From NCBI GenBank assembly GCA_009784765.1, contig WQXP01000001.1, forward strand, positions 1 to 26,904: 26,904 nt of DNA. Reading direction: 5' to 3'. The notes beneath the pieces are model-generated. The model did no database searches. It saw nothing but the letters and a program-made list of their open reading frames with translations, and had not been told where the DNA came from. Made by a program: the position numbers and the translations under genes. How positions within the stretch are numbered: the first letter of the stretch is position 1; the number at the start of each line of letters is the position of its first letter. Source of the stretch: Oscillospiraceae bacterium. Lineage in GTDB: Bacteria > Bacillota > Clostridia > Oscillospirales > Ruminococcaceae. Positions 1-19,669 of the stretch are shown one piece after another.

Positions 1-171
1 AAATACTTCATTGGCTCTGTAGATATTCTCGATTACGTCCATTGCCAAGTTTTGCAACCTCGTAACAAACGTAAATCGAAACTGTTTAGGTGATTTTTGC
101 GTAACCGTGATGATGTAAGTGCATAATTCTTTGGCTTTCATAATCACGGTTAGCTCTTTTTGCACGGACAT
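1..171 (-). CDS. Avd-like four-helix-bundle protein, N-terminal 57 residues (runs off window)
   Basis: This short reading frame starts at the ATG at 171 and continues leftward off the window edge. It begins MSVQKELTVIMKAKELCTYI, then continues with QKSPKQFRFTFVTRLQNLA and ENIYRANEVF. The pattern 'KAKELC..I..VT.KSPK.FRF(T)..RLQN.A...IE.IYRAN' matches what I know of the Avd / S23-like four-helix-bundle family. In Clostridia this family is the usual accessory protein of diversity-generating retroelements, where Avd binds the reverse transcriptase and template RNA. The start is supported by a GAGG ribosome-binding site a few bases upstream. An in-frame ATG at 210 is possible but lacks a good RBS. 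A consensus promoter at 376-404 points at the gene. Only the N-terminus is visible and the reverse transcriptase would lie outside, so a stand-alone four-helix-bundle protein cannot be excluded. Confidence 0.62.
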   Translation of the reverse strand, partial: MSVQKELTVIMKAKELCTYIITVTQKSPKQFRFTFVTRLQNLAMDVIENIYRANEVF

Positions 172-375
172 AGAGTACCTCGAAAATAAGAACCGCACGC
201 CGTTATCCATTCGCTACGCTCATGGACGGCTGAGCGAACCTTGAAATCTGCGATTATAAAAAATCGCGTCCGCCGCTACGCGGCAAGATTGGTCTTCTGC
301 TAATTTATAAGTTTCTGCAATTTATCTATATTCTTCTAACCTCTGCCCGCCCCAACCTCCGTCTTCATCTCCCCA
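172..375 (-). other. ~200-nt structured leader upstream of the Avd-like gene
   Basis: No convincing gene lies between the promoter at 376-404 and the Avd-like start. Read leftward, the leader holds two perfect hairpins: GCCGC-GTA-GCGGC (272-284) and GCGATT-TTTTAT-AATCGC (250-267). A looser imperfect inverted repeat surrounds CCATTCGCTACGCTCATGG (about 206-224). A tiny possible peptide frame (MKTEV..., about 336-368) follows a purine-rich stretch but is not supported enough to call. The leader could be a structured 5' UTR or merely contain short palindromic repeats. It shows no obvious similarity to the 3' end of the DUF6273 gene, so I do not call it a template repeat. Confidence 0.4.
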
Positions 376-404
376 ATCATACCACAAAACAGCGCGAATG
401 TCAA
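376..404 (-). promoter_or_regulatory. Sigma-A promoter for the Avd-like gene
   Basis: Read on the minus strand there is TTGACA (399-404), a 17-bp spacer and TATGAT (376-381). That is a perfect -35 and a one-mismatch -10. It lies downstream of the PEPCK terminator and points toward the partial gene at 1-171, so that gene appears to be transcribed separately from the PEPCK operon. Confidence 0.72.
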
Positions 405-426
405 TACCATTGACATGAGTCTTTTT

Positions 427-505: not shown

Positions 506-522
506 TCATACCGCACAAAAAT

Positions 523-553
523 CCCCCCGCCCATCGTCAAGACAGGCGGGGGG
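523..553 (-). terminator. Intrinsic terminator of the PEPCK operon
   Basis: A perfect 9-bp GC stem, CCCCCCGCC (523-531) with GGCGGGGGG (545-553), has a 13-nt loop. On the minus strand it is followed by ATTTTTGTG. It begins 10 bases after the PEPCK stop codon, as expected for the end of the leftward operon. Confidence 0.85.
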
Positions 554-563
554 AGTTTGTGTT

Positions 564-2621
564 TCATGAGTTCAGCAGACGTTTCTCAAAATCCATGAGC
601 TGGTCGCGGAGTTGTTCGGGGATTTTGTCGCCGAACTTCGCGAAGAACTGTTTAACTGCGTTAATGTCTTCTTTCCAGTGGTTTTTCTCGAGGCGAAAAA
701 CCCGTTCGAGGGTTTCAGCGGTGAAGCCGTACTGCTCTTCAAGGCCCGAGATGTCTATATCCTCAAGTTTGGGCAGATAGCCCATGGGGGCTTCGATACT
801 GCCGGGGCGTTCATCGCCTGTTTTGGTAACGCGGTTGATTACCCAATCAAGAACGCGGATATTTTCGCCGAATCCGGGCCAAAGAATGCCGCCGTCTCCG
901 ACTTTGAACCAGTTGACATTGAAGATTTTCGGAGCATTACGCCCGAGCTTCTTGCCGAGCTTTAGCCAATGCCGCCAGTAGTCTGTGGTGTTGTATCCGC
1001 ACAGCGAAAGCATAGCCATAGGGTTTCTCCGCACGACGGTGCTGCCGCCGATTCCCGTTTCGCTGCCGAGGATTGCTCCGACGAAAACACCGTGTTCCCA
1101 ATCAAAAGTTTGATACACAAGGGGAACGGCTTTCGAGCGACGACCGCCGAATATTATCGCGGATATAGGCACGCCGTCAGGATTGTTCCAACTCTCCGAG
1201 AGATTGGGGCAGTTGATGAGCGGCGCAGTCACGCGGCTGTTCGAGTGTGAGCCGCGAGAGGGCACTTTGCTCCCGTACAGTGTTTCGCCCGCGCAGCCCT
1301 CACTGTCGGGAACATCAGAAGCGTCGGCGTTTTCGCCCGCTTCATCAAAATCAGAGGTTGGCGCGTCAATAGCGAACTCTTCGCCCGGCTCTTCCGGCAC
1401 GTAGCCCTCCGCGAACTCTGAATCAGGGTCGTCTTCATCGTCTTCATCAGCGAAATCATCGTCCGCGCTTGTACTAACAAGAACCGGCGGCGGTTCGTCG
1501 GGCGCTGTCCAGTATTCGCCCTTCCAGTTTATGAGGCTTTCATCAGTGAGTTCTGATTTGTCAAGTGAAGCCATTCCCTCCCACCAGACTGTGTTGTTGT
1601 CTGTGTTGTGAACTACGTTGGCGAAAATCGCGTTTTCGCTGAAAGTTGCGAAAACATTCGGATTGCTCTCTTCGTTGAGCCCCGACGCCAATCCAAAAAC
1701 GCCGATTTCAGGATTAGTCGCCCACAATCGCCCGTCGCTGCCTTTTTTGAGCCACGCAACGTCATCACCGATACAGCGAACAGCGTAACCGCGCTGAGCG
1801 TATTCGGGGCAGACTTCGAGCATAGCAAGGCTCGTTTTGCCGCACCCCTGCGGAAACGCCGCCGCAATGTAGAAGGGTTCGTCAGAGTCGGGCGTGATTA
1901 CCTCAAGAATCGCCATATGCTCCGCGAGCCAGCCCTCACGCTGCGCCGCACATGAGGCTAATCGGAGGGCAAATGCCTCTTTGCTCAAAACCGCGTTCGC
2001 GCCGAAGCCTGTGTTAATCGCCCAGACGGCGTTATCCTGCGGGAAATTGCAAATATAGCGATTGTCTTCTTTCGGGACTGTGTCTGTTCCCGACCCGTGA
2101 ACCCCGAAAAACCAATCAGGGATTTCGCCCTCCTGCGCTTTCGCCGCCCCTTTAGAAAGGGCGTTAAGCATTTTCGCGGCAGAAGTTCCGCATATGTTTA
2201 TTGTAACCATGTTCAAAACAACACAGAGGTTATCGGTAATCTGAACTCCCGCTCTGTCCCCTAAACAAAAAGGAACAATGTACATGGTTTTCCCTGCGAA
2301 AAAGTTCGTGAACTTCTCGCGCAGTGTTTCATACATTTGCGACGGCTCTTGCCAATTTGCGTCAGGGTCAGCGTCAGCGCGATTTTCGCAGCAGATGAAA
2401 AGCCGTGTATCCGCACGCGCCGCCCCCCCGATGCTCGTTCTGTGCAGAACACAACCCGGGAATCGCTCGTCGCACAGCGGCGTTACTAATTCCAAGTCAA
2501 GTGCTGCTGCTTTCAGCACGCCGATTTGTTCTTCACTGCCGTCAATCCATATTTCTTTTTCGGGATTGGCTAAGCTTCTGATTTCGTCAATCCTTTTGAG
2601 AACGGCTGAGTTGGTTATCAT
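564..2621 (-). CDS. pckG: Phosphoenolpyruvate carboxykinase (GTP) with acidic insertion
   Basis: This is the GTP-dependent PEP carboxykinase, which interconverts oxaloacetate + GTP and PEP + CO2 + GDP in the cytoplasm. The protein has 685 residues. Visible motifs are the P-loop with the mobile-loop cysteine, FPQGCGKTSLAM (256-267), the kinase-2 motif IGDDVAW (284-290), SNPN (319-322), NSRVTAP (461-467), and ISAIIFGGRR (486-495) followed by VPLVY. Known family members are about 600 residues. The excess is an Asp/Glu-rich segment at about residues 376-456 (1254-1496), between WKGEYWTAP and HSNSRVTAP. The ATG at 2621 has AAGGAG 9 bases upstream. It is the last gene of the leftward operon, 53 bp after the aminotransferase. 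Together they handle oxaloacetate/aspartate. The enzyme assignment is firm; the role of the insertion is unknown. Confidence 0.95.
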   Translation of the reverse strand: MITNSAVLKRIDEIRSLANPEKEIWIDGSEEQIGVLKAAALDLELVTPLCDERFPGCVLHRTSIGGAARADTRLFICCENRADADPDANWQEPSQMYETLREKFTNFFAGKTMYIVPFCLGDRAGVQITDNLCVVLNMVTINICGTSAAKMLNALSKGAAKAQEGEIPDWFFGVHGSGTDTVPKEDNRYICNFPQDNAVWAINTGFGANAVLSKEAFALRLASCAAQREGWLAEHMAILEVITPDSDEPFYIAAAFPQGCGKTSLAMLEVCPEYAQRGYAVRCIGDDVAWLKKGSDGRLWATNPEIGVFGLASGLNEESNPNVFATFSENAIFANVVHNTDNNTVWWEGMASLDKSELTDESLINWKGEYWTAPDEPPPVLVSTSADDDFADEDDEDDPDSEFAEGYVPEEPGEEFAIDAPTSDFDEAGENADASDVPDSEGCAGETLYGSKVPSRGSHSNSRVTAPLINCPNLSESWNNPDGVPISAIIFGGRRSKAVPLVYQTFDWEHGVFVGAILGSETGIGGSTVVRRNPMAMLSLCGYNTTDYWRHWLKLGKKLGRNAPKIFNVNWFKVGDGGILWPGFGENIRVLDWVINRVTKTGDERPGSIEAPMGYLPKLEDIDISGLEEQYGFTAETLERVFRLEKNHWKEDINAVKQFFAKFGDKIPEQLRDQLMDFEKRLLNS

Positions 2622-4010: not shown

Positions 4011-5408
4011 TTACGCTTGTGTACTAATCCACATAGCGGGGCGAATGCCCTCAAACCGCCAGTAACCGCTTCTGAGTTCTTCAAAGCCGATTCCTGACAA
4101 TCTCCAGGGGGCGCGTTCGCCGCGAAGATTAAGGCTTCCGTCGAAGTTGACATAAGCGTTGCCGTAGTTAGAAAACCCTGCCCCGGGGGAACGGAGCGCC
4201 CACGAGACGTTCCTGTCCTCTTCGCGCCATTGTGCCATTCGGCGTTCGTTATAGTCGTCGTCGATTATATCGCCGCTGTGAAGCTGTTCCCTGTCACCCA
4301 TATACTGCAAAACCTCATTTATACTGAGCAGGAAAACTCTATCCGTTGTTTCATCACCTCCTGCTGTTCCGAAGTTTTGGTTATCATAATTCGCGAGTGT
4401 CGTTTCTAAAATCCACGCTCTCTCTGCGTCTGTGAAGGTGGTTTCATAAAACTCACCGTTCAGATAATTTCGCATACTGCTGCTGAGCCATCTTTGCCCG
4501 GACATAAAACCCATGTTCGACAGAACACGCCGGCTGAGAACCAACATTCTGTCGCTTTCCTCATCGTTTTCAAGAACAATCCAGTCAAGCCCGCCGAGTT
4601 CTACCGTTTCCCACGGGAAAGGCGCAGGAGGTTCGTCGTCTTCAGAATTTCCGGAGGTTTCGCCGTTCACGCGAACGCACTCTTCCATGCAGCAGTATGG
4701 CTCGACGATAAAGTCACAGACTATTCTGCCGATTTCGTTGCGGGAAATAAGCACATGAACATGAAGTGTTCGCTCTTCTTTTACCGTAAGTACCAAAGGT
4801 GTCTGCACATCAACATTGTAAACAAACTGCAGTGAGAGCATTCCGCCCTCCCCGCTCATTGCCACGCGAAAAGACGCCGCGTCGGTTATTTCGAACGCCG
4901 CTTGGCTGTCGTTGGAAATCCGCACGACTGTATGCTCATCTTTGTCGGGGCGGCTGTAAATTTCCACACGCCTGAGAGCCAAATCGCCTTGAGCAATCGC
5001 CTCGACGCTTGTTTTCCCCATGCGGAAACGCCTCTCTGTTTGCCCCTCCACAAGCCCCACTGCTATATGCCCGTTAATCCAAATCTCGTCGCTGTTCTGT
5101 GAGGGCATAATTTCCCCGCTTATGTTAAAGCTCGGAAAAAATGCAGGTCTACCCGCCTCAATCGCAGCCTGAATTTTTTCTTCCTCAGTGTAGCGGGTGT
5201 AATAAGTCAGGTCATTGAGGGATTTTTCATAAGCCTCCCTGTCGATTTGAGCAGAGTAAAGCCTGTGAACGCGCAGATAGTTATTGGTGGGGGCAACAAT
5301 CTCGTCCGACACGTAGTTAATTTCGGGAACGTGGAACTCTCTCCACCCGAAAATCCCGATAATCGCGAGTACTGCTACTGAAAGCCCGATAAATACTATT
5401 TTTCTCAT
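4011..5408 (-). CDS. Membrane-anchored DUF6273-type protein (possible DGR target)
   Basis: The 465-residue protein starts with a short basic end and one hydrophobic segment (about 4-21), consistent with a membrane anchor or uncleaved signal and an extracytoplasmic body. Residues 25-260 are not recognised. From about 264 the sequence has the DUF6273 pattern: WIVLENDEESDRMLVLS, MRNYLNGEFYETTF, RVFLLSINEVLQYMG, then VSWALRSPG (401-409) and, at the extreme C-terminus, GIRPAMWI (454-461). This C-type-lectin-like form (W.LRSPG ... GVRPALW) is one I associate with variable proteins of diversity-generating retroelements. Codons between the two motifs are rich in NNC triplets, as expected if AAC template codons were mutated at A. 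The RBS is AAGGAA. It sits 18 bp after the FkbM gene. Function and DGR link are inferred. Confidence 0.65.
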   Translation of the reverse strand: MRKIVFIGLSVAVLAIIGIFGWREFHVPEINYVSDEIVAPTNNYLRVHRLYSAQIDREAYEKSLNDLTYYTRYTEEEKIQAAIEAGRPAFFPSFNISGEIMPSQNSDEIWINGHIAVGLVEGQTERRFRMGKTSVEAIAQGDLALRRVEIYSRPDKDEHTVVRISNDSQAAFEITDAASFRVAMSGEGGMLSLQFVYNVDVQTPLVLTVKEERTLHVHVLISRNEIGRIVCDFIVEPYCCMEECVRVNGETSGNSEDDEPPAPFPWETVELGGLDWIVLENDEESDRMLVLSRRVLSNMGFMSGQRWLSSSMRNYLNGEFYETTFTDAERAWILETTLANYDNQNFGTAGGDETTDRVFLLSINEVLQYMGDREQLHSGDIIDDDYNERRMAQWREEDRNVSWALRSPGAGFSNYGNAYVNFDGSLNLRGERAPWRLSGIGFEELRSGYWRFEGIRPAMWISTQA

Positions 5409-5425: not shown

Positions 5426-6556
5426 TTATTTAGTAACGATTAACTGAAACTCCCACCCCGGGAGACAGCGCGTTTTGCGAAGTGCGAACTTATATCCGCT
5501 GTACATTTCGTGAACAAGAAGGGGCAGTTTGAACAAATCCGCGCTTCTGTGATACAGCGACAGGAGCATTCGCGGGCGGTGTTTCGCGATTGTTTCCCTG
5601 CCCCCGAGAAGCACCTGCTCCTCTGCCCCCTCAACGTCGATTTTGATATACGTCGGCTTCAGGTCAGGAGTACGTGCCGCCAATGAGTCTACTGTAACCC
5701 CTTGGACAGAAACCGTTCGCCCTGCGACTTCCTTGCCCATAACTGCCAACTGTACAAAACCCGCTTTGCCTGATTTCACCGCGAAAGTCAACATTTCGTC
5801 GGTGTTCCATGCTGCCCCGTGAACAGGTACGAACAGCTCGCTGCCGTAGGCGTAGAACTTGCGGCGCAAAAGAGTATAGTTGCTGATGTCGGGTTCGATT
5901 GCGACTACTCTGGCGAATTTGCCTTGTGTAAGCGCGATAAACTCCTCGACGGTGTCCCCTTTGAACGCACCTGCGTCAATAAAGAACTCACCCTCCGCGA
6001 TTTTGTCCCCCGCCTTGAGTTTCAGCATAGCGAGAAGTTCTTCGCGCGGAGTTGCGATTTGCTCAAGAATGTCCGCTTTTCCCGAAAGGCGATACTGTAA
6101 CCAGCCGTCGAAAACTTGTAACGACTTCTTGTCCCCGCTTCTTTCGAACAGTTTACGCGCTTTCGCGATTTGCTCTGCGTGTTCGCTCATATAATCGGGA
6201 GTGTAAATTTCCGTCGGTTCGCCGGTTACAGGCAGGTCAGGGACATACAGCTCAAACCCGGTGGCGGCTTCTGCGATTTTGTCAAGCACTTCCGGTTTAT
6301 CGCTCCCGAAACACAGCAAAAGCACAGCGTCGGGATACTTTTCGCGAACTGTCGCAACAGGCAAAACTTCATAACCGCGAAATGCAGGTTTGAGTCCGAA
6401 ATCCCCCGTTGCGGTGAAACAAGCGGGTGTCAGCCCGTATCTGCCCATAACAGCGAGAACTTTGTCCGCTCCGTCGCCTGTCCCGAAAAGGATTATGGGT
6501 TTATTGCAGCTCTGCAAATATTCCCACAGAAAGAATGTGTTGTGATTATCTTGCAT
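5426..6556 (-). CDS. FkbM family SAM-dependent methyltransferase
   Basis: The protein has 376 residues in two parts. The N-terminal ~110 residues have a Rossmann-like motif IILFGTGDGADKVLA (21-35), resembling the small nucleotide-binding domain often fused to sugar-modifying enzymes. The C-terminal methyltransferase has motif I FFIDAGAFKGDTVEEF (191-206), the acidic loop VVAIEPD (217-223), and YIKIDVEGAEEQVL (303-316), which is diagnostic of the FkbM family (Methyltransf_21). Such enzymes O-methylate sugars or polyketides; the substrate here is unknown. The ATG at 6556 lies within the end of the glycosidase gene (11-bp overlap) and is preceded by GAAGGA, suggesting translational coupling. Confidence 0.88.
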   Translation of the reverse strand: MQDNHNTFFLWEYLQSCNKPIILFGTGDGADKVLAVMGRYGLTPACFTATGDFGLKPAFRGYEVLPVATVREKYPDAVLLLCFGSDKPEVLDKIAEAATGFELYVPDLPVTGEPTEIYTPDYMSEHAEQIAKARKLFERSGDKKSLQVFDGWLQYRLSGKADILEQIATPREELLAMLKLKAGDKIAEGEFFIDAGAFKGDTVEEFIALTQGKFARVVAIEPDISNYTLLRRKFYAYGSELFVPVHGAAWNTDEMLTFAVKSGKAGFVQLAVMGKEVAGRTVSVQGVTVDSLAARTPDLKPTYIKIDVEGAEEQVLLGGRETIAKHRPRMLLSLYHRSADLFKLPLLVHEMYSGYKFALRKTRCLPGWEFQLIVTK

Positions 6557-11082: not shown

Positions 11083-11826
11083 ATGAAGAAAGACTATGTA
11101 TCATCCTATGTGATTAAGCGATTGCCACGCTACTATCGCTTTTTAGGCGATTTGATTGACGAGGGAAGAGACAGAATCTCGTCAAGCGAGTTAGGGGGGC
11201 GTCTCAAACTCACCGCAAGCCAAGTGCGGCAAGACCTCAACTGTTTCGGCGAATTCGGGCAGCAAGGCTATGGCTATAATGTCGAGCTTTTGAGAGAAGA
11301 AATCGGGCGGATTATCGGGATTAACGGCGATAAATCCAACACCGTTATTATTCTCGGCGCCGGAAAGCTCGGTTCTGCCATTTGCGACAATCCCAGCTTC
11401 GAGAAGCGCGGGTGTAAGATTATCGGGATTTTCGACAAAGACCCTGCTCTGAAAGGCAAAGACGCAGGGGGTCACAAAATCCGCTTTGCAGGAGAACTTG
11501 AAAACTTCTGCCGCAGATATTCGCCCGATATTGCTGTTCTGTGCGTTCCTAAAGAGAGTGCCAAGTTAGTCTGCGAAGAACTGATTGGGCTTGGGGTAAC
11601 GAATTTCTGGAACTTTACTCATTTTGACATAAATTTGCATTTCGACGACGTGAATGTCGAAAACGTACATCTCGGCGACGGGCTTCTGACGCTGGTTTAC
11701 AATCTTAATGCCGCAAAAGATGATGCACAGGCGCAAATCTTAGGGCCTTCTGCACGGAAAGCGGAAGCTGAGAGACAGGCGGCAGAACTCAGAGTAAGAA
11801 GGCTGAAAAAGCAAAAAGGTGAGTGA
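11083..11826 (+). CDS. rex: Redox-sensing transcriptional repressor Rex
   Basis: Rex represses fermentation and respiration genes and leaves DNA when NADH binds. The N-terminal winged helix includes IKRLPRYYRFLGDLIDEG (11-28) and LKLTASQVRQDLNCFGEFG (41-59), as in known Rex proteins. The Rossmann domain has GAGKLGSAI (92-100) and the acidic IFDKDP (116-121) for NADH. NFWNFTH and NVHLGDGLL follow. The usual length is about 210 residues. Here a charged, Ala/Arg/Lys-rich tail of about 35 residues (211-247) is added. It is the third gene after aconitase and IDH. The stop codon is within a few bases of the CotH gene start. I found no complete Rex operator (TTGTTAANNNNTTAACAA type) upstream of the operon. 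Confidence 0.95.
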   Translation: MKKDYVSSYVIKRLPRYYRFLGDLIDEGRDRISSSELGGRLKLTASQVRQDLNCFGEFGQQGYGYNVELLREEIGRIIGINGDKSNTVIILGAGKLGSAICDNPSFEKRGCKIIGIFDKDPALKGKDAGGHKIRFAGELENFCRRYSPDIAVLCVPKESAKLVCEELIGLGVTNFWNFTHFDINLHFDDVNVENVHLGDGLLTLVYNLNAAKDDAQAQILGPSARKAEAERQAAELRVRRLKKQKGE

Positions 11827-11831
11827 GCGGT

Positions 11832-13631
11832 ATGAGCGAAAAAGCCGTCAAGGGTGTTCTCCTCGCTTTGATGTGGGTGGCGGCAGTAGTCGGGGCATTC
11901 GCTGCAATCAGCATTCCCGTATCAGTAGCACCGACTGTTCCTGAGCCGTTAGTCGCCCCCATGTCTGTGAGGTTTTCCCACGCTGCAGGATTCTATGATG
12001 AAGACTTCACCCTTACACTTACATCAAATCATGAGAACGCCGTGTTTTATTACACGACGGACGGGCGGCCGCCTCGGATACCCGGGAGCGGCAGCGAAAA
12101 CTGCGAGTTCACCAAACGCACCGACGGAGCAATCAAGGCGGAAGTTTTACCCGCACACCCGCGTCAATTGCGATTACACGTATTGAGTATCAACGCAGTC
12201 GCGGTGGCGGTTGACGAAAATCAGCAGGTGCAAATATCACAGATTTTTACACGCAACTTCGTCATGAGTTCGCGGGTGTGGCAGCGATTCAGCGAAAACA
12301 CACTGATTTTCGCGCTTAATTCTGACCCCCACGGGCTTTATGACCATCATGACGGGATTTTTGTTCCCGGGATTGACAGAGAACTCTACATCGCCGAATC
12401 GGGCAGACGCAATCCTGACCCGCCCGCCCCCGCGAATTACAATCGGCGCGGCGCAGAGGCAGAGCGTGAAGTTTATGTTGAGGTGTTCAACAGCGCGGGG
12501 GAAATGCTGCTGTCTCAGAATGCGGGAATGCGCGTTCGCGGCGGCTGGTCCCGGGCGAGTACCCAGAAGTCTCTCGAGTTATATGCGCGTAACCGCTACA
12601 GCCCGGGAACGAACATCTTCGCGTTTGATTTCTTTGGAGGGCGTAGTCTTGACGAATGGGGTGAGCCGATTACTGAATTTCGGCGAGTGCGGCTTCGTAA
12701 CAACGGAAACGACCGTGAGTTCGGGAATGTCCGCGATGAACTCGGGCATATGCTCTTCGCGCAGGCAGGGTTTCCCGATACTCAGCAACATACCCCTGCT
12801 GCGATTTTCCTCAATGGGGAGCTGTACGGGTTTTCGTGGCTCAAAACTCCGCGAACGGAAGACCACTGGCAGCGCAGGTACGGCGGCAGAGTCGCGGGGT
12901 TTGAACACATCGGCGACGGTGAGGGGGAAGACCGCACAGAAGCCGAGCATTTCAGTGGGAACGACCGCGCAACCATGGACTGGTTGGAAGTCGTCAATCT
13001 TGCGCGAGGGGGGTTCACGGGAAGTGCAGGCGAACGCCGCTGGAGTGAGTTCAAGGAGCGGGTTTGCATTGATAACTTGATTTTGTACTACGCGCTGCAA
13101 ATTTATATCAGCAACGTAGACTGGCCCGGCGGAAACATAGAAATGTGGCGATATTTTCCCGACGCTGATGAAGACTTGAGCGAATTACACCCCTTCTTGG
13201 CGGACGGAAAGTGGAGGTTCATAGCCCAAGACGTAGAGTTCGCGTGGAACTTGTACGGGCGCGGCATGATGAACCGCAATACCCTTGCCGACGTTCTTAA
13301 CGGAACAGGGGAAATGGGGGCAAAGTCTGAGCTGCTCGGGGCGATTTTAGAACGCGAGGAAATGAAAGCCAAATTCGCCGACGTTATGTTTGAGCTTATG
13401 GACACAGTTTTCTTACCCGCGAACGTCAACGCGGTGCTTGATGAGCTAATCGAGCTGAACTTTGACGAAATAAGCTGGGCATTGTCGGCAGGGCTGTATG
13501 AGCCGCACAATCCCCACTGGCCCTCAGAGGGCAGTATGCGCGAGAGCCAGACCCACATTCGCAACTTCGCAAGAGGCCGCCCCGAACGCATGGTGCGGAT
13601 TCTTGAGGAAACACTCGGCATAACACGTTAG
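11832..13631 (+). CDS. Secreted/membrane-anchored CotH kinase family protein (first copy)
   Basis: The 599-residue protein has an N-terminal hydrophobic segment (about 9-30), then a chitobiase/hexosaminidase C-terminal-like Ig domain (VRFSHAAGFYDEDFTLTLT, FYYTTDGRPP, 46-82), then a CotH kinase domain. Kinase-family hallmarks are RVRGGWSRASTQKSLELYAR (234-253), RNNGNDREF (289-297), IFLNGELYGF (325-334) and WRFIAQDVEF (461-470), where D467 probably corresponds to the metal-binding aspartate. CotH kinases are atypical protein kinases first known from spore-coat proteins; the target here is unknown. I prefer the ATG at 11832, with AAGGTGAG upstream, over the GTG at 11823 that would overlap rex. 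It is co-transcribed with rex and is a paralogue of the next gene. Confidence 0.85.
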   Translation: MSEKAVKGVLLALMWVAAVVGAFAAISIPVSVAPTVPEPLVAPMSVRFSHAAGFYDEDFTLTLTSNHENAVFYYTTDGRPPRIPGSGSENCEFTKRTDGAIKAEVLPAHPRQLRLHVLSINAVAVAVDENQQVQISQIFTRNFVMSSRVWQRFSENTLIFALNSDPHGLYDHHDGIFVPGIDRELYIAESGRRNPDPPAPANYNRRGAEAEREVYVEVFNSAGEMLLSQNAGMRVRGGWSRASTQKSLELYARNRYSPGTNIFAFDFFGGRSLDEWGEPITEFRRVRLRNNGNDREFGNVRDELGHMLFAQAGFPDTQQHTPAAIFLNGELYGFSWLKTPRTEDHWQRRYGGRVAGFEHIGDGEGEDRTEAEHFSGNDRATMDWLEVVNLARGGFTGSAGERRWSEFKERVCIDNLILYYALQIYISNVDWPGGNIEMWRYFPDADEDLSELHPFLADGKWRFIAQDVEFAWNLYGRGMMNRNTLADVLNGTGEMGAKSELLGAILEREEMKAKFADVMFELMDTVFLPANVNAVLDELIELNFDEISWALSAGLYEPHNPHWPSEGSMRESQTHIRNFARGRPERMVRILEETLGITR

Positions 13632-13663
13632 CCGCCCCAAAGGGAGCGGAGTAATATAGTCAT

Positions 13664-13681
13664 AATTTGTTCATGCAAATT
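13664..13681. promoter_or_regulatory. Inverted repeat between the two CotH genes
   Basis: AATTTG-TTCATG-CAAATT is a perfect 6-bp inverted repeat in the 83-bp gap before the second CotH gene. The flanking sequence is AT-rich, but I see no clear -35/-10 pair, so the second gene is probably read through from upstream. It could be an operator or a small hairpin. Confidence 0.25.
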
Positions 13682-13714
13682 AAAATAAACAAAATCTTAT
13701 GGAGGTAAACCACA

Positions 13715-16700
13715 ATGACAACAACCCAAAAAAGCAGAAGGCTCAAAACCTTGGTCAGTTTCGCGGTTATGTTTGCGATGATACTGTCCATGGTCGTTGA
13801 GTTGCCGACTTCAGCACCGGCACCAATCGTGAGTGAACTCGCAGGGGCTTCTTACGCGAGTGAGAACCCCAACGATGATGACGACGATGACGGCGCAAAC
13901 GTCAGGCGTGTGCAATTTAACGACGCGAGCGGAAACTCAATCCCGGCGGGGTTCGTTTCCGGGCCGTTTTCGGTAACACTCGGGCATCGCCCGCGTGAGG
14001 GGCAGAATGTAACGATTTACTACACCACGAGCCAAACCTCAGCGGAATGGTCTCCGAATGGTTTCCAGTTCCCTTACATTGAATCAAATGACCCCGTTTC
14101 GATGGCACGCCAAATGCGCGAACGCCACGACGGCGGTGTAGACCCTATGGGTTATGACATTGCAGGACGCGCCGAAAGGTATAACTTCACTTGGCACCAA
14201 GGCGTTCAAACGGCGCAACCGGGGGCGACTGTTCAGGTGTCGCCTAACCCCGGCGCAGGCAACTACGCGAGTGTGTTTACAATCAGCGCAATGGCGGTGA
14301 TTCAAACACCCCATGGGCATGAAACATCAAGAGTGAGAACCCGTTCTTGGATTCTCGGCCCGAACCGCTGGCAAGGAACTGATTTCATGGTGTTCTCTGT
14401 TTATGCAGGGGCTGATGAACTTTTCGGCTGGAACGACGGTATTCTTATCCCGGGGCTTGACCGCGGCGATATGGGGCGGGAGTTAGTCCGCCTTAATCCC
14501 GGGCGTTACCGCGACTTAGATGCTTTCAACCAGCAACTCAACAACCTTCTGCTTCAAGGGGCGTACCCCCCCACTTGGCCCGCGAACTTCACGCGGCGCG
14601 GACGTGGCGCAGAGGTTCTCGGCAATGTGGAAATGTTCGACCCTAACGCACCTGTCGGCGAACAACGCCTGATTAACCAGCGCGTCGGTATTCGTATGAA
14701 GGGCGGTTGGTCTCGCGGAACTTATTCTTACGAGCAAAGAACCTTTGAGTTCTATGCCCGTGATGAGTTAGGCGACAGAAACAACTTCCTCTTCCCCCTC
14801 TTTGAAGAAGAGCATATGCATGACGGCAACCTCATGCACCGCTATCGCCGCTTCCGCGTGCGTAACGGCGGTACTGACCGTGAGCAGCTTTATATGCGCG
14901 ACGAGTTAGGCTCAGAGCTTGCGAAACAATCGGGCTTCGAGAATGCGCAAAGATATCGCCCCGCAGTTGTTTTCCTTAACGGCGGTTACTACGGAATGAC
15001 TTTCATGAAATCCCCGAGAACGGAAGACCACTGGCAACGCCTCTATGGCGGGCGCCGTAACGGATTCCACCTCAGCGGTTCGAACGAGAACGGCGCAGAT
15101 ACTTGCTTCAGCAACTATTGCGGCCGTGTAATCCCCGGCTCAAGCGGCGGAACTGAAATCAGCGACCTCAACCGCCAAATTCCCCGCATTTGCGGTGAAG
15201 GCGTTGAGCGTTGCTCTCGTGCAGCCGGTGGAAATACCCGCCCTTGTGCTGACTTCTGGAGCGAACCTAACTCCGGCTGTGAAATCGGGCGGTGTCGTGC
15301 GTCTTCAGGGCGCGGTTCGTGGCGTGAGGTACGCTCGGTAATCACAGGTGAGGGGCATAACTCCGGGGGAGTGGCTGTCGCACCGGGAACTCGCCGTGAA
15401 CCTAACGGGCTTCAGAACGACGCGAACTGGGCAAGGCTTAATGAACTTGTTTGCCTTGACAACCTGTTCCATTACTATGCACTGCAAATCTTCGGCGCCA
15501 ACGTAGACTGGCCTTCAAACAACGTGGAAATGTGGAAATACTTCACGAGATGCGGAAACGGTTCAGGGGGATTGGCTTCTCCTCCCGTTGATTGTGAGAA
15601 CCGCCAATGCACTGTGGAAGGTTGCGAAAACCTCATGGTTCGCCGCGGCGAGCTTCACCCGCACTTAGACGGCAGATGGCGTTTCATCGCGCAAGACTTA
15701 GAGTATGGCTGGGGGCTTTTCGCTAACGGCGTTGAGGCTTCGGCGACTCACCACACAAGCAACACACTCCACGCGCTGATTGTAAGGACAGGGACACGCA
15801 ACCACGTCCCCGGTGAACCTCCTGAACACGGCGAATGGGAAGTTGAAAACACACCTAACCCGCGAATCAGGCATCACTTCAACGCTTCGGCGCAGTCGTT
15901 CATTATGCCTGCTATGCTTAACCCTGCACACTCGACCGCTGCAAGGGCACAGCAAAATCGCGAAAGATTAGCTAACGCATTGGCTGACATTATCCAGGGT
16001 TCACACTCAGCGGCTAATATGGCTTCTGTAGCCAACAGAATCTGGACGATGAAGGAAAACGAGCATCGACACATGATTGGTCACGGCAATGTGAGAATGG
16101 TTAATGACAATTATCAAGTAACGACGACTCAGCACAGCCAAGGGCAACGCCGCATTTCGGAGTTCCCCCGCGGTAATCCTTGGGGCGAAATTCCGCCGAC
16201 CCCTTACTGGGCACCCACTAACAGACCTTGGGACCCCGACACGACTGTGAGAATCGACCCGAACTCGATTTCTACAGGGGCGCGTCAAATGCTCACAGAC
16301 TTCTTGCAACATCGCGGAACGCAAATGCAAAACATGATGGGGCGTACCGCTCCTTCGGCGGTGATTGCACCTCCGAGTAACTCAAGGCCCAACGCAACCC
16401 CGACGGGGGACTTCGGGCTCGGGCTTTCATGGGCGAGCGGGCGTGATGTCCAAATCTCGGTAACTGCGGGGGGCTGGGCACAAATCAACACCCGCGTAAT
16501 CGGAATGGAAGGTGTTGCTACAGGCGACCCTCGCGGCGCGAAAAGCGCGACTGTCAAACATTTCGGGACTGCTCCCGTTCGCGTAATCGCAAATCCTTGG
16601 CCGGGGTACCGCGTGGCGAGTGTCAGTGGCGGAACGCCTTGTCCGACGGGGCTGCCGAACTACTTCATCACCACAGGCGCGACGAGCATTGCGGTATCTT

Positions 16701-17191
16701 TTGAGCGGGACACGACTGCACGCTATCCCGAAATCACTGCTCTGCAGGCGCGGGCACAAGGCACGCAAGGTAACTGGATTGAAATTACCAACAACACTGC
16801 TTCTGCAATTACCACTCGCGGGCTGTATATGTCGGACAACTGGGAAGACAGAAACGAAGAGTCCAGCTCTCGCCCGCAAGACAGAGATTTTGACTTCCGT
16901 TGGAGAATGCCTGCATTCATTATTCGCCCTGGCGAAACTGTGTTCCTGCGCACAACAGGCACGAACTTAGATTCCCACCGCGCACTCAAACGTGCGGAAA
17001 CCAACTTTGGGGTTGCTTTCGGAGAGCGTCTGCGTTTGGCAGACAGCCGCGGGAATGTAATCCAAAAAGTCGAAGTTTCGCTGATGACTAACGGACAGAT
17101 GCAGCGACGGGGTGTCGGCGCGAACGGCGTTGACGACGGTAACTGGCGGATTGTTGACTGGAACGGGCAACGGGGTCAAGGGATTCGCTAA
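13715..17191 (+). CDS. Large secreted CotH kinase protein with Cys-rich insertions and lamin-tail domain
   Basis: The 1158-residue protein has a signal peptide (basic start, hydrophobic 12-30) and an Asp run (54-59). An Ig-like chitobiase-type domain follows (about 65-215). The CotH kinase domain spans about 300-790. Its hallmarks are RMKGGWSRG (327-335), RNGGTDRE (383-390), VVFLNGGYYGM (418-428), VDWPSNNVEMW (597-607) and WRFIAQDLEYGW (655-666). Two insertions absent from the first CotH protein are Cys-rich: C464, C468, C493, C500, C511, C522 and C527, then C613, C627, C632 and C637. The tail has a beta-rich region (about 895-1000) and a lamin-tail-like domain (about 1003-1150, with NWIEITNNTAS). 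GGAGG lies 9 bases before the ATG. Substrate and partner are unknown. Confidence 0.85.
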   Translation: MTTTQKSRRLKTLVSFAVMFAMILSMVVELPTSAPAPIVSELAGASYASENPNDDDDDDGANVRRVQFNDASGNSIPAGFVSGPFSVTLGHRPREGQNVTIYYTTSQTSAEWSPNGFQFPYIESNDPVSMARQMRERHDGGVDPMGYDIAGRAERYNFTWHQGVQTAQPGATVQVSPNPGAGNYASVFTISAMAVIQTPHGHETSRVRTRSWILGPNRWQGTDFMVFSVYAGADELFGWNDGILIPGLDRGDMGRELVRLNPGRYRDLDAFNQQLNNLLLQGAYPPTWPANFTRRGRGAEVLGNVEMFDPNAPVGEQRLINQRVGIRMKGGWSRGTYSYEQRTFEFYARDELGDRNNFLFPLFEEEHMHDGNLMHRYRRFRVRNGGTDREQLYMRDELGSELAKQSGFENAQRYRPAVVFLNGGYYGMTFMKSPRTEDHWQRLYGGRRNGFHLSGSNENGADTCFSNYCGRVIPGSSGGTEISDLNRQIPRICGEGVERCSRAAGGNTRPCADFWSEPNSGCEIGRCRASSGRGSWREVRSVITGEGHNSGGVAVAPGTRREPNGLQNDANWARLNELVCLDNLFHYYALQIFGANVDWPSNNVEMWKYFTRCGNGSGGLASPPVDCENRQCTVEGCENLMVRRGELHPHLDGRWRFIAQDLEYGWGLFANGVEASATHHTSNTLHALIVRTGTRNHVPGEPPEHGEWEVENTPNPRIRHHFNASAQSFIMPAMLNPAHSTAARAQQNRERLANALADIIQGSHSAANMASVANRIWTMKENEHRHMIGHGNVRMVNDNYQVTTTQHSQGQRRISEFPRGNPWGEIPPTPYWAPTNRPWDPDTTVRIDPNSISTGARQMLTDFLQHRGTQMQNMMGRTAPSAVIAPPSNSRPNATPTGDFGLGLSWASGRDVQISVTAGGWAQINTRVIGMEGVATGDPRGAKSATVKHFGTAPVRVIANPWPGYRVASVSGGTPCPTGLPNYFITTGATSIAVSFERDTTARYPEITALQARAQGTQGNWIEITNNTASAITTRGLYMSDNWEDRNEESSSRPQDRDFDFRWRMPAFIIRPGETVFLRTTGTNLDSHRALKRAETNFGVAFGERLRLADSRGNVIQKVEVSLMTNGQMQRRGVGANGVDDGNWRIVDWNGQRGQGIR

Positions 17192-18346: not shown

Positions 18347-18993
18347 TGCAAATTTTCTCAATGTTCCGCCGCAGTGCTGCTAATCTCAAGAGCGTTCAGT
18401 GCCTCGCAGTTACCGGGGTGCTGTCCGCGCTTTATATCGTCTTGAACGCTTATGTGGGCCTTAATATCACCTCGCCTTTAGGGCCGCTGAGGATAACTTT
18501 CGGCTACCTTGCACTCGCGATGATTGCTATGCTCTACGGGCCTGTAGTCGCGGTGCTTGCGGCGATTCCCTGCGACTTGCTCGCCGCTACCCTCGACCCG
18601 CACAACGCTATGAACCCTGTGTTCACCCCCAACCGAATGCTTGAGGGGCTGATTTACGGGATTATGCTCTACGGGCTTTTGCGCAAGGACTATCGCGGCT
18701 CAATCCTGAACATGGTGGGATTTGTTCTGCGGATTGCCATGGCGCGGCTTGTTGTGATGTTCGTGTGTTATATCGTGCTGAACAATTTCTTGATTTTCAA
18801 TTTTTCGCTCCCGCCGGGCAGGCCGCAGGAAATCCTCAGCAATGGGACGTTCTGGGCATGGGCGTGGGCAAGAAATGGCTGGAAGAACCTCATTCAGTTC
18901 CCCGCCGATTTGGCTCTGATGTATATTATGCTCCCCTCCGCGGGGTTGGCGTATATCAAGACTGTAGGTAAGCATAGGAGGAAAGAAGCATGA
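18346..18993 (+). CDS. folT: ECF transporter S component, folate family
   Basis: The 215-residue membrane protein binds a vitamin and delivers it with the shared EcfA/A'/T energising module, which is not in this window. It has about six hydrophobic segments (for example CLAVTGVLSALYIVLNAYV and FGYLALAMIAMLYGPVVAVLA). The pattern RITFGYLALAMIAMLYGP...DLLAATLDP resembles folate-family S components (FolT), with the usual LR-I/S-F core and an acidic residue after the glycine-rich helix. Substrate is therefore inferred as folate but could be another vitamin. The start is taken as ATG 18346, overlapping the pfkA stop; TTG at 18343 is an alternative. GGAGG lies about 13 bases upstream. Confidence 0.75.
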   Translation: MQIFSMFRRSAANLKSVQCLAVTGVLSALYIVLNAYVGLNITSPLGPLRITFGYLALAMIAMLYGPVVAVLAAIPCDLLAATLDPHNAMNPVFTPNRMLEGLIYGIMLYGLLRKDYRGSILNMVGFVLRIAMARLVVMFVCYIVLNNFLIFNFSLPPGRPQEILSNGTFWAWAWARNGWKNLIQFPADLALMYIMLPSAGLAYIKTVGKHRRKEA

Positions 18994-19007
18994 AAGGAGT
19001 AAACCAT

Positions 19008-19256
19008 ATGCAAACTTATGAGGGTTATATCGAAAACGGCTACTTTACTCCAATCGGAACGCCGTTAGGTATCGTCGGACGTAGACGTGCTGTTTTGAAT
19101 TTGGTAGAAGACTCAAATTCCGACTATGACAATCTTTCTCACAACGAGTATTTAATTCTCCTTAACCAGTTACGTGGTTGTATTGATGACCCGACTTTCG
19201 TTGAGCCGCCTGAAATTCCTTGGGAGTATTACTCAAAAATCGAGGATTTAGAGTGA
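19008..19256 (+). CDS. Putative antitoxin of a VapBC-type module
   Basis: This small acidic protein of 82 residues begins MQTYEGYIENGYFTPIGTP and ends EIPWEYYSKIEDLE. I do not recognise a defined DNA-binding fold. Its place directly before a PIN-domain toxin, with a TGATG stop-start overlap, marks it as the antitoxin. ATG 19008 has AAAGGAG 8 bases upstream; the in-frame ATG at 18990, overlapping the ECF stop and preceded by AGGAGG, would add six residues and is a real alternative. Homologues I recall begin with the MxxxEGxxENGxFxPxG form, which favours 19008. Confidence 0.65.
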   Translation: MQTYEGYIENGYFTPIGTPLGIVGRRRAVLNLVEDSNSDYDNLSHNEYLILLNQLRGCIDDPTFVEPPEIPWEYYSKIEDLE

Positions 19257-19669
19257 TGTATTTTCTTGATACTAATACTTGCGTTTTTTTGTTGAGCAAT
19301 AAGTTCAAAGAAAAAAGTAAAATAACATGGGAACACATACGGACTGTGCCACGCAACAGTATTAAAATTCCGTCTGTTGTTTTAGCAGAACTGTGTCATG
19401 GTGCTGCAAAAAGCAAATTTCGTGAAAAAACCTTTGAAAAAAATCATCGTTTCCTTGCTTTTTATGAAGTTGTCCCCTTTGACGAACACGCCGCCCGAGT
19501 ATATGGCGATATTCGTGCGGGACTTGAAACAAAAGGGCAAATTATCGGTGGTAACGATTTAATGATTGCGGCAATTGCATTAACTCACAACGCAATCTTG
19601 GTAACGAATAACACTCGCGAATTTTCCCGCATTGAGGGATTATTACTCGAAGACTGGAGCGTAACATGA
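19256..19669 (+). CDS. vapC: PIN-domain toxin ribonuclease, VapC family
   Basis: The 137-residue protein is a PIN-domain endoribonuclease that probably cleaves tRNA or rRNA when its antitoxin is lost. The metal-binding acidic residues are D5 (MYFLDTNTCVFLL), E45 (VLAELCHGA) and D101 (GGNDLMIAA), followed by VTNNTREFSRIEGL (116-129), all typical of VapC. The start overlaps the antitoxin stop and the stop overlaps the proC start (ATGA). Base composition is visibly more AT-rich than in pfkA (about 35% GC in a sample at 19381-19440 against about 62% at 18181-18240), which suggests it was acquired. Confidence 0.9.
   Translation: MYFLDTNTCVFLLSNKFKEKSKITWEHIRTVPRNSIKIPSVVLAELCHGAAKSKFREKTFEKNHRFLAFYEVVPFDEHAARVYGDIRAGLETKGQIIGGNDLMIAAIALTHNAILVTNNTREFSRIEGLLLEDWSVT

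Follow-up and report, generated by a model that had tools for sequence, protein, structure and literature searches.

In intact diversity-generating retroelements (DGRs), Avd is the partner of the reverse transcriptase (RT) for copying a mutated template repeat (TR) into a variable repeat (VR), and the motifs LGNQxSQW and YMDD are typical of the RTs of these elements. The closest systems to the locus described here are clostridial DGRs with DUF6273 targets (L011, L012, L015, L019 and others), whose Avd heads share 63-85% identity with ours. A DGR target may also bear its variable region in a DUF6273 domain in Faecalibacterium phages, as stated in PMC11792537. For the DGR of BPP-1, PMC3240598 describes inverted repeats right after VR, which is where the relatives analyzed below carry them, between VR and avd; the loops are different, being 4-base GRNA in the BPP-1-type hairpins and 3-base, by eye, in the relatives. 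In Treponema denticola, according to PMC4891356, target genes remain without the DGR core (RT and TR).

We analyzed a window of 26,904 nucleotides, which is the entire contig C1 of an Oscillospiraceae bacterium, so that the left window edge is also the contig end. The first 171 bases encode the beginning of an avd gene, hereafter the avd head. The locus resembles the remnants of T. denticola in that DGR parts persist without RT and TR, whereas the leftovers there are target genes and the leftover here is an avd head (PMC4891356). We consider it reasonably probable that the window begins in an orphan truncated avd head, derived from DGR decay or from the copying of a target cassette.

The avd head and its family

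The avd head (1-171, minus strand) comprises codons 1-57 of avd from a DGR and is still open where the contig ends. Its likely start is the ATG at 171, and a GAGG located 6 bases 5' of this ATG (178-181, minus strand) would, by our reading of the bases, be the ribosome-binding site. A complete Avd has about 120 residues in four helices, while the window frame holds 57 before the contig ends. The first-pass annotation had described these residues as Avd-like and proposed a search against the Avd profile families, and the outcome agreed with it. The 57 residues matched phrog_3206 of PHROGs ("Avd protein of DGR", E 1e-12) and NF033474 of NCBIfam (Avd, 4.2e-8), and the 70-residue frame matched bAvd of Pfam (PF22296, 6.3e-5). 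The alignments to the Pfam and NCBIfam profiles covered the first half only, and both matches were below the curated whole-protein cut-offs. The NCBIfam cut-off was also missed by all six full-length relatives scanned. Among solved structures, no match was found for alignment A1 at E 0.001.

The codons of the avd head were compared with those of its relatives. Against L011, 29 of 52 codons differed silently and 5 of 52 altered the residue, and against L027, the most distant of the 11 compared, there were 20 silent and 18 residue-changing differences. The silent excess relative to L011 indicates that the avd head was under coding constraint until recently, or that an intact sister copy exists.

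The head also gave a weak match to PF05635 (E 0.0042; 17.7 bits versus a cut-off of 33.8), as would be expected if it encoded a four-helix protein of the 23S rRNA intervening-sequence family with no part in a DGR. This reading is extremely improbable in our view, as the Avd models outscored PF05635, the relatives are located in DGRs, and no Rfam family reached the gathering threshold in the window or in contig C169 of the same assembly. A PF05635 search of the own genome returned no match and shows nothing, since none of the 14 control genomes was positive.

VR-avd-TR-RT cassettes in related genomes

In a scan of genome_contigs, 21 of 64 stretches encoded a relative of the avd head with 63-85% identity. 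Most of these were from Clostridia MAGs; two belonged to Succinimonas (L030) and Ruminobacter (L031), both of the Gammaproteobacteria and distant from the other, clostridial loci. In these two, avd is broken or truncated and comes after a VR end. An RT frame was present on the same strand, 1-542 bases past the avd stop, in 16 of the 21 relatives, counting L020, where it was shorter (about 220 residues), and L021, where it was in pieces. The RT profile was built from 12 rows, seven of which were wrong-strand scraps of 5-80 residues, and was carried by five real RTs; Pfam RVT_1 agreed with it. LGNQxSQW and YMDD were common to the 14 RTs that were aligned. As for the loci counted without RT, the sequence of L013 stops 342 bases past avd and that of L029 stops 87 bases past the matched head, while L023, L030 and L031 had truncated or broken heads and no RT within the sequence covered.

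A TR/VR partner differing almost only at adenines was found in 14 of the 16 RT loci by comparing 60-base windows around the avd-RT gap. There were 241 adenine-specific windows; with C, G or T as the mutable base instead, the counts were 0, 0 and 0. The same scan found no adenine-specific window pair in L021 and L027. The intact relatives shared one layout, in which a target gene ending in VR is followed by hairpins, avd, TR and RT, and the target genes ended in DUF6273 in all four cases scanned. The avd head truly belongs to a DGR Avd gene: the 21 relatives and the codon differences from L011 speak against a chance resemblance, and the family is secure, with an RT downstream in 16 of 21 related loci and an adenine-specific TR/VR in 14 of those 16. 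The first-pass annotation had thus named the right gene family, its relatives being the Avd of VR-avd-TR-RT cassettes.

Only 4 of 149 related genomes searched contained an avd match, the own genome included. One of the other three was of the same family and two were of the same order, and no avd match occurred in any of 20 same-genus genomes among the matches listed. The DGR element is patchy and was perhaps acquired. In two contigs, G018:C108 and G013:C79, Avd pieces were present in both orientations, which resembles palindromic assembly artefacts. A viral origin was considered and set aside: alignment A1 matched 24 stretches of viral_contigs, and a check with just two peptide patterns confirmed none of them. 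A 37% relative of L011's full-length Avd occurs in two phage records.

Sequences upstream of the avd head

Using a VR-end pattern derived from the same loci after inspection, and distances counted from the start of the tblastn match rather than a checked start codon, we located a VR end in 20 of the 21 relatives, 118-460 bases ahead of the avd match, the exception being L029. VR was upstream of avd in 16 of the 16 RT-bearing relatives. No VR-end motif was found near the avd head of the window; the nearest one upstream lay 3872 bases away, where a DUF6273 protein gene (4011-5408, minus strand) ends, with the PEPCK and aminotransferase genes lying in between. The window differs from the clostridial DGRs in this missing upstream VR and in that the second half of avd, TR and RT were not found. 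It resembles them in the hairpin-like spacer before avd, which is partly common. A GC-rich hairpin followed by a T run is located at 258-282 (minus strand), and 17 bases of it (258-274) are identical to the VR-avd spacer of L012, in both copies there. The DUF6273 protein gene has the same domain as the VR-bearing DGR targets of the relatives. No TR was found for it, and this includes an adenine-pair scan of the window and C169.

Further upstream, the segment at 347-425 (minus strand) is a scrap of a repeat with copies on C9 (79 bases, 96%), C23 (69 bases, 94%) and C31 (48 bases, 96%), as seen in the best 40 of 48 candidates. On these three contigs the repeat reads as the protein start MKQRRFKRLMSMVLTFALFCGMIG (...LTFALFCGM...), which looks like a signal peptide by eye and opens frames of 108, >200 and 50 residues, respectively; the window copy is without the first codons. 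It was also observed that this signal-peptide-like start is repeated, at 94-96% DNA identity, ahead of different proteins on C9, C23 and C31.

The scrap contains the promoter-like string TTGACA-17-TATGAT (376-404, minus strand), an 11/12 match. The first-pass annotation had proposed that the avd-like gene is transcribed alone from a strong promoter. The string is indeed present, but a strong promoter for the avd head does not follow from it: it lies in a coding repeat, the 2 promoter-like sites in 800 bases compare with an expectation of 1.0 (sd 1.0), and between the string and the avd head there is a weak terminator-like hairpin of 5 pairs (265-282). Most plausibly the string arose by accident within coding sequence, although it may still be active.

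The position of the VR-bearing target gene of the relatives is occupied here by a PEPCK (GTP) gene (564-2621, minus strand; PF00821 and PF17297), and past this gene there is a terminator-like hairpin (522-554, minus strand) with 14 pairs, 10 of them G-C, and then a T run. The PEPCK has an extra acidic stretch, and most same-genus matches break at about query residues 374-452, with that of G066 unbroken. A survey of PEPCK gave a match in 43 of 60 genomes and 30 loci including the own one. The gene tex, which is found on C169, did not appear in the 29 same-genus PEPCK loci; this says nothing about PEPCK-tex synteny, because many of the loci extend for under 1 kb beyond PEPCK, and the neighboring aminotransferase is missing there too. 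Elsewhere in the window, two adjacent CotH-like kinase genes (11823-17191, plus strand) encode 602 and 1158 residues, and the larger product matches a lamin-tail domain weakly; a small gene followed by a putative PIN-domain (VapC-like) toxin gene, recognized by eye, occupies 18990-19669 (plus strand).

The left edge, truncated heads and the origin of the fragment

At the left edge, positions 1-123 of the window are exactly identical to the terminal 123 bases of C169 (3196 bases), an end-to-end overlap within the same assembly (best 40 of 48 candidates). When the avd frame was read into C169, 15 more codons unlike Avd were followed by a stop, and past the stop came a short lipoprotein-like frame (by eye) and then tex. 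We infer that C169 is the physical neighbor of the window edge, and with C169 as the true neighbor the avd gene is cut. The assembler did not join the two contigs here, which hints at a second, perhaps intact, copy of the overlapping sequence. When 14 other contig starts were examined, one exact overlap was found, between the C13 start and C163 (99 bases, opposite strand), and the C13 start had weaker copies elsewhere too (best 40 of 96 candidates for both).

The first-pass annotation had raised the possibility of a DGR to the left, to be recognized by an RT gene and an adenine-specific repeat pair; neither these nor the second half of avd nor an upstream VR could be found. The searches for RT were made in the own assembly, which is 61% complete, comprises 219 contigs and is broken inside avd; unbinned contigs fall outside them. 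There was no RVT_1 match (Pfam) in this assembly, the same search being positive in 3 of 14 control genomes, and no match to an alignment of 14 DGR-type RTs, an alignment that has no positive control. Avd matches in the assembly were confined to C1 and the overlapping C169. The scan for adenine-specific repeats, which finds pairs in 14 of 16 RT relatives, covered the window and C169 and returned none. The C169 flank was also tried as a TR or VR and rejected, its local alignments to 13 TRs failing to outscore the top one of 100 shuffles in each case. C169 also shares 15 bases with the two VR ends of L012 and with that of L013, a match that is suggestive through its position alone.

An intact DGR with full avd, TR and RT could lie just to the left, unassembled or unbinned, in which case C169 would hold a further, truncated copy, and the identity between the copies would have broken the assembly. 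The unjoined overlap at the contig edge and the coding constraint on the head are in keeping with it, as are the RT downstream of avd in 16 of 21 relatives and the case of G018, where the second avd part and an RT are on contig C121, apart from the heads on other contigs. But VR is upstream in all 16 RT-bearing relatives and absent in the window, and no RT was found in the own assembly, and we regard an intact element as unlikely. It is far less likely still that a short Avd of about 57-72 residues works as a protein, for example by binding an RT encoded by a DGR at another place in the genome. The coding constraint would suit such a protein, and there are 55 short relatives from a search limited to 31-99 residues, one of which (P0018, 60 residues) is on 17 contigs. 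Such a size-limited search returns short proteins only, however, and many are possibly cut by contig ends. Moreover, truncation points vary among the relatives, the C169 tail is unlike the other short proteins among the matches listed, and an RT to bind was not found in the own assembly.

Truncated heads also occur among the relatives. In L012, a second copy of the VR 3' flank accompanies the full DGR (6020-6375): an accessory VR (6020-6160) leads into the same hairpins and then into a cut-off avd head, with divergence after about 32 codons and a stop after 35. The window and this accessory copy are alike in having a truncated avd head behind a hairpin spacer; they differ in that the L012 head stands behind a VR and diverges at about 32 codons, while the window head has no VR and extends for at least 57 codons. 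Heads that stop early or diverge were also seen in L021, L023, L029, L031 and G018:C36, with different truncation points, and the head of L030 is broken. A VR precedes the truncated or broken heads of L021, L023, L030 and L031, and none precedes that of L029. These heads fit either DGR decay or the copying of a cassette made up of VR, hairpins and the avd 5' end.

The orphan truncated head is favored for the window because the VR motif is 3872 bases away instead of 118-460, because of the stop in C169, because no RT, avd remainder or repeat pair was found, because truncated or broken heads exist in the L012 accessory copy, L021, L023, L029, L030, L031 and G018:C36, and because target genes stranded without a DGR core are reported for T. 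denticola (PMC4891356). It is weakened by the 61% completeness of an assembly in 219 contigs, by the unjoined C169 overlap, and by the 29 silent versus 5 residue-changing codons relative to L011. On this explanation the pieces normally surrounding avd would be gone; the scrap of a protein gene and then PEPCK lie upstream, and downstream, with C169 as the neighbor, the 15 foreign codons would close the avd frame. The fragment would yield a stump of no more than about 72 residues, which by itself would diversify nothing. As to its origin, we infer that a DGR decayed or that a VR-hairpin-avd 5' cassette like the one in L012 was copied.

The second of these routes can be taken one step further, in a proposal that is tentative and on balance rather doubtful: the avd 5' end of this clade may ride a portable cassette (VR, downstream hairpins and the first 30-90 avd codons, copied together) to new targets. 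Stray avd heads would then be footprints of spreading targets, and the window head may be one such footprint from which VR was lost. Being one route to an orphan head, this proposal overlaps in probability with the favored explanation. In the portions of the DGR literature that were searched, no account of avd heads traveling with VRs was found.

The fragment would be what is left of an element of a known kind, and avd heads without RT would mark the former sites of DGRs or of target cassettes. Where heads are repeated, assemblies may break inside avd, and surveys that require a nearby RT would then miss such heads. If the heads do travel with VRs, they would reveal the origin of accessory DGR targets.
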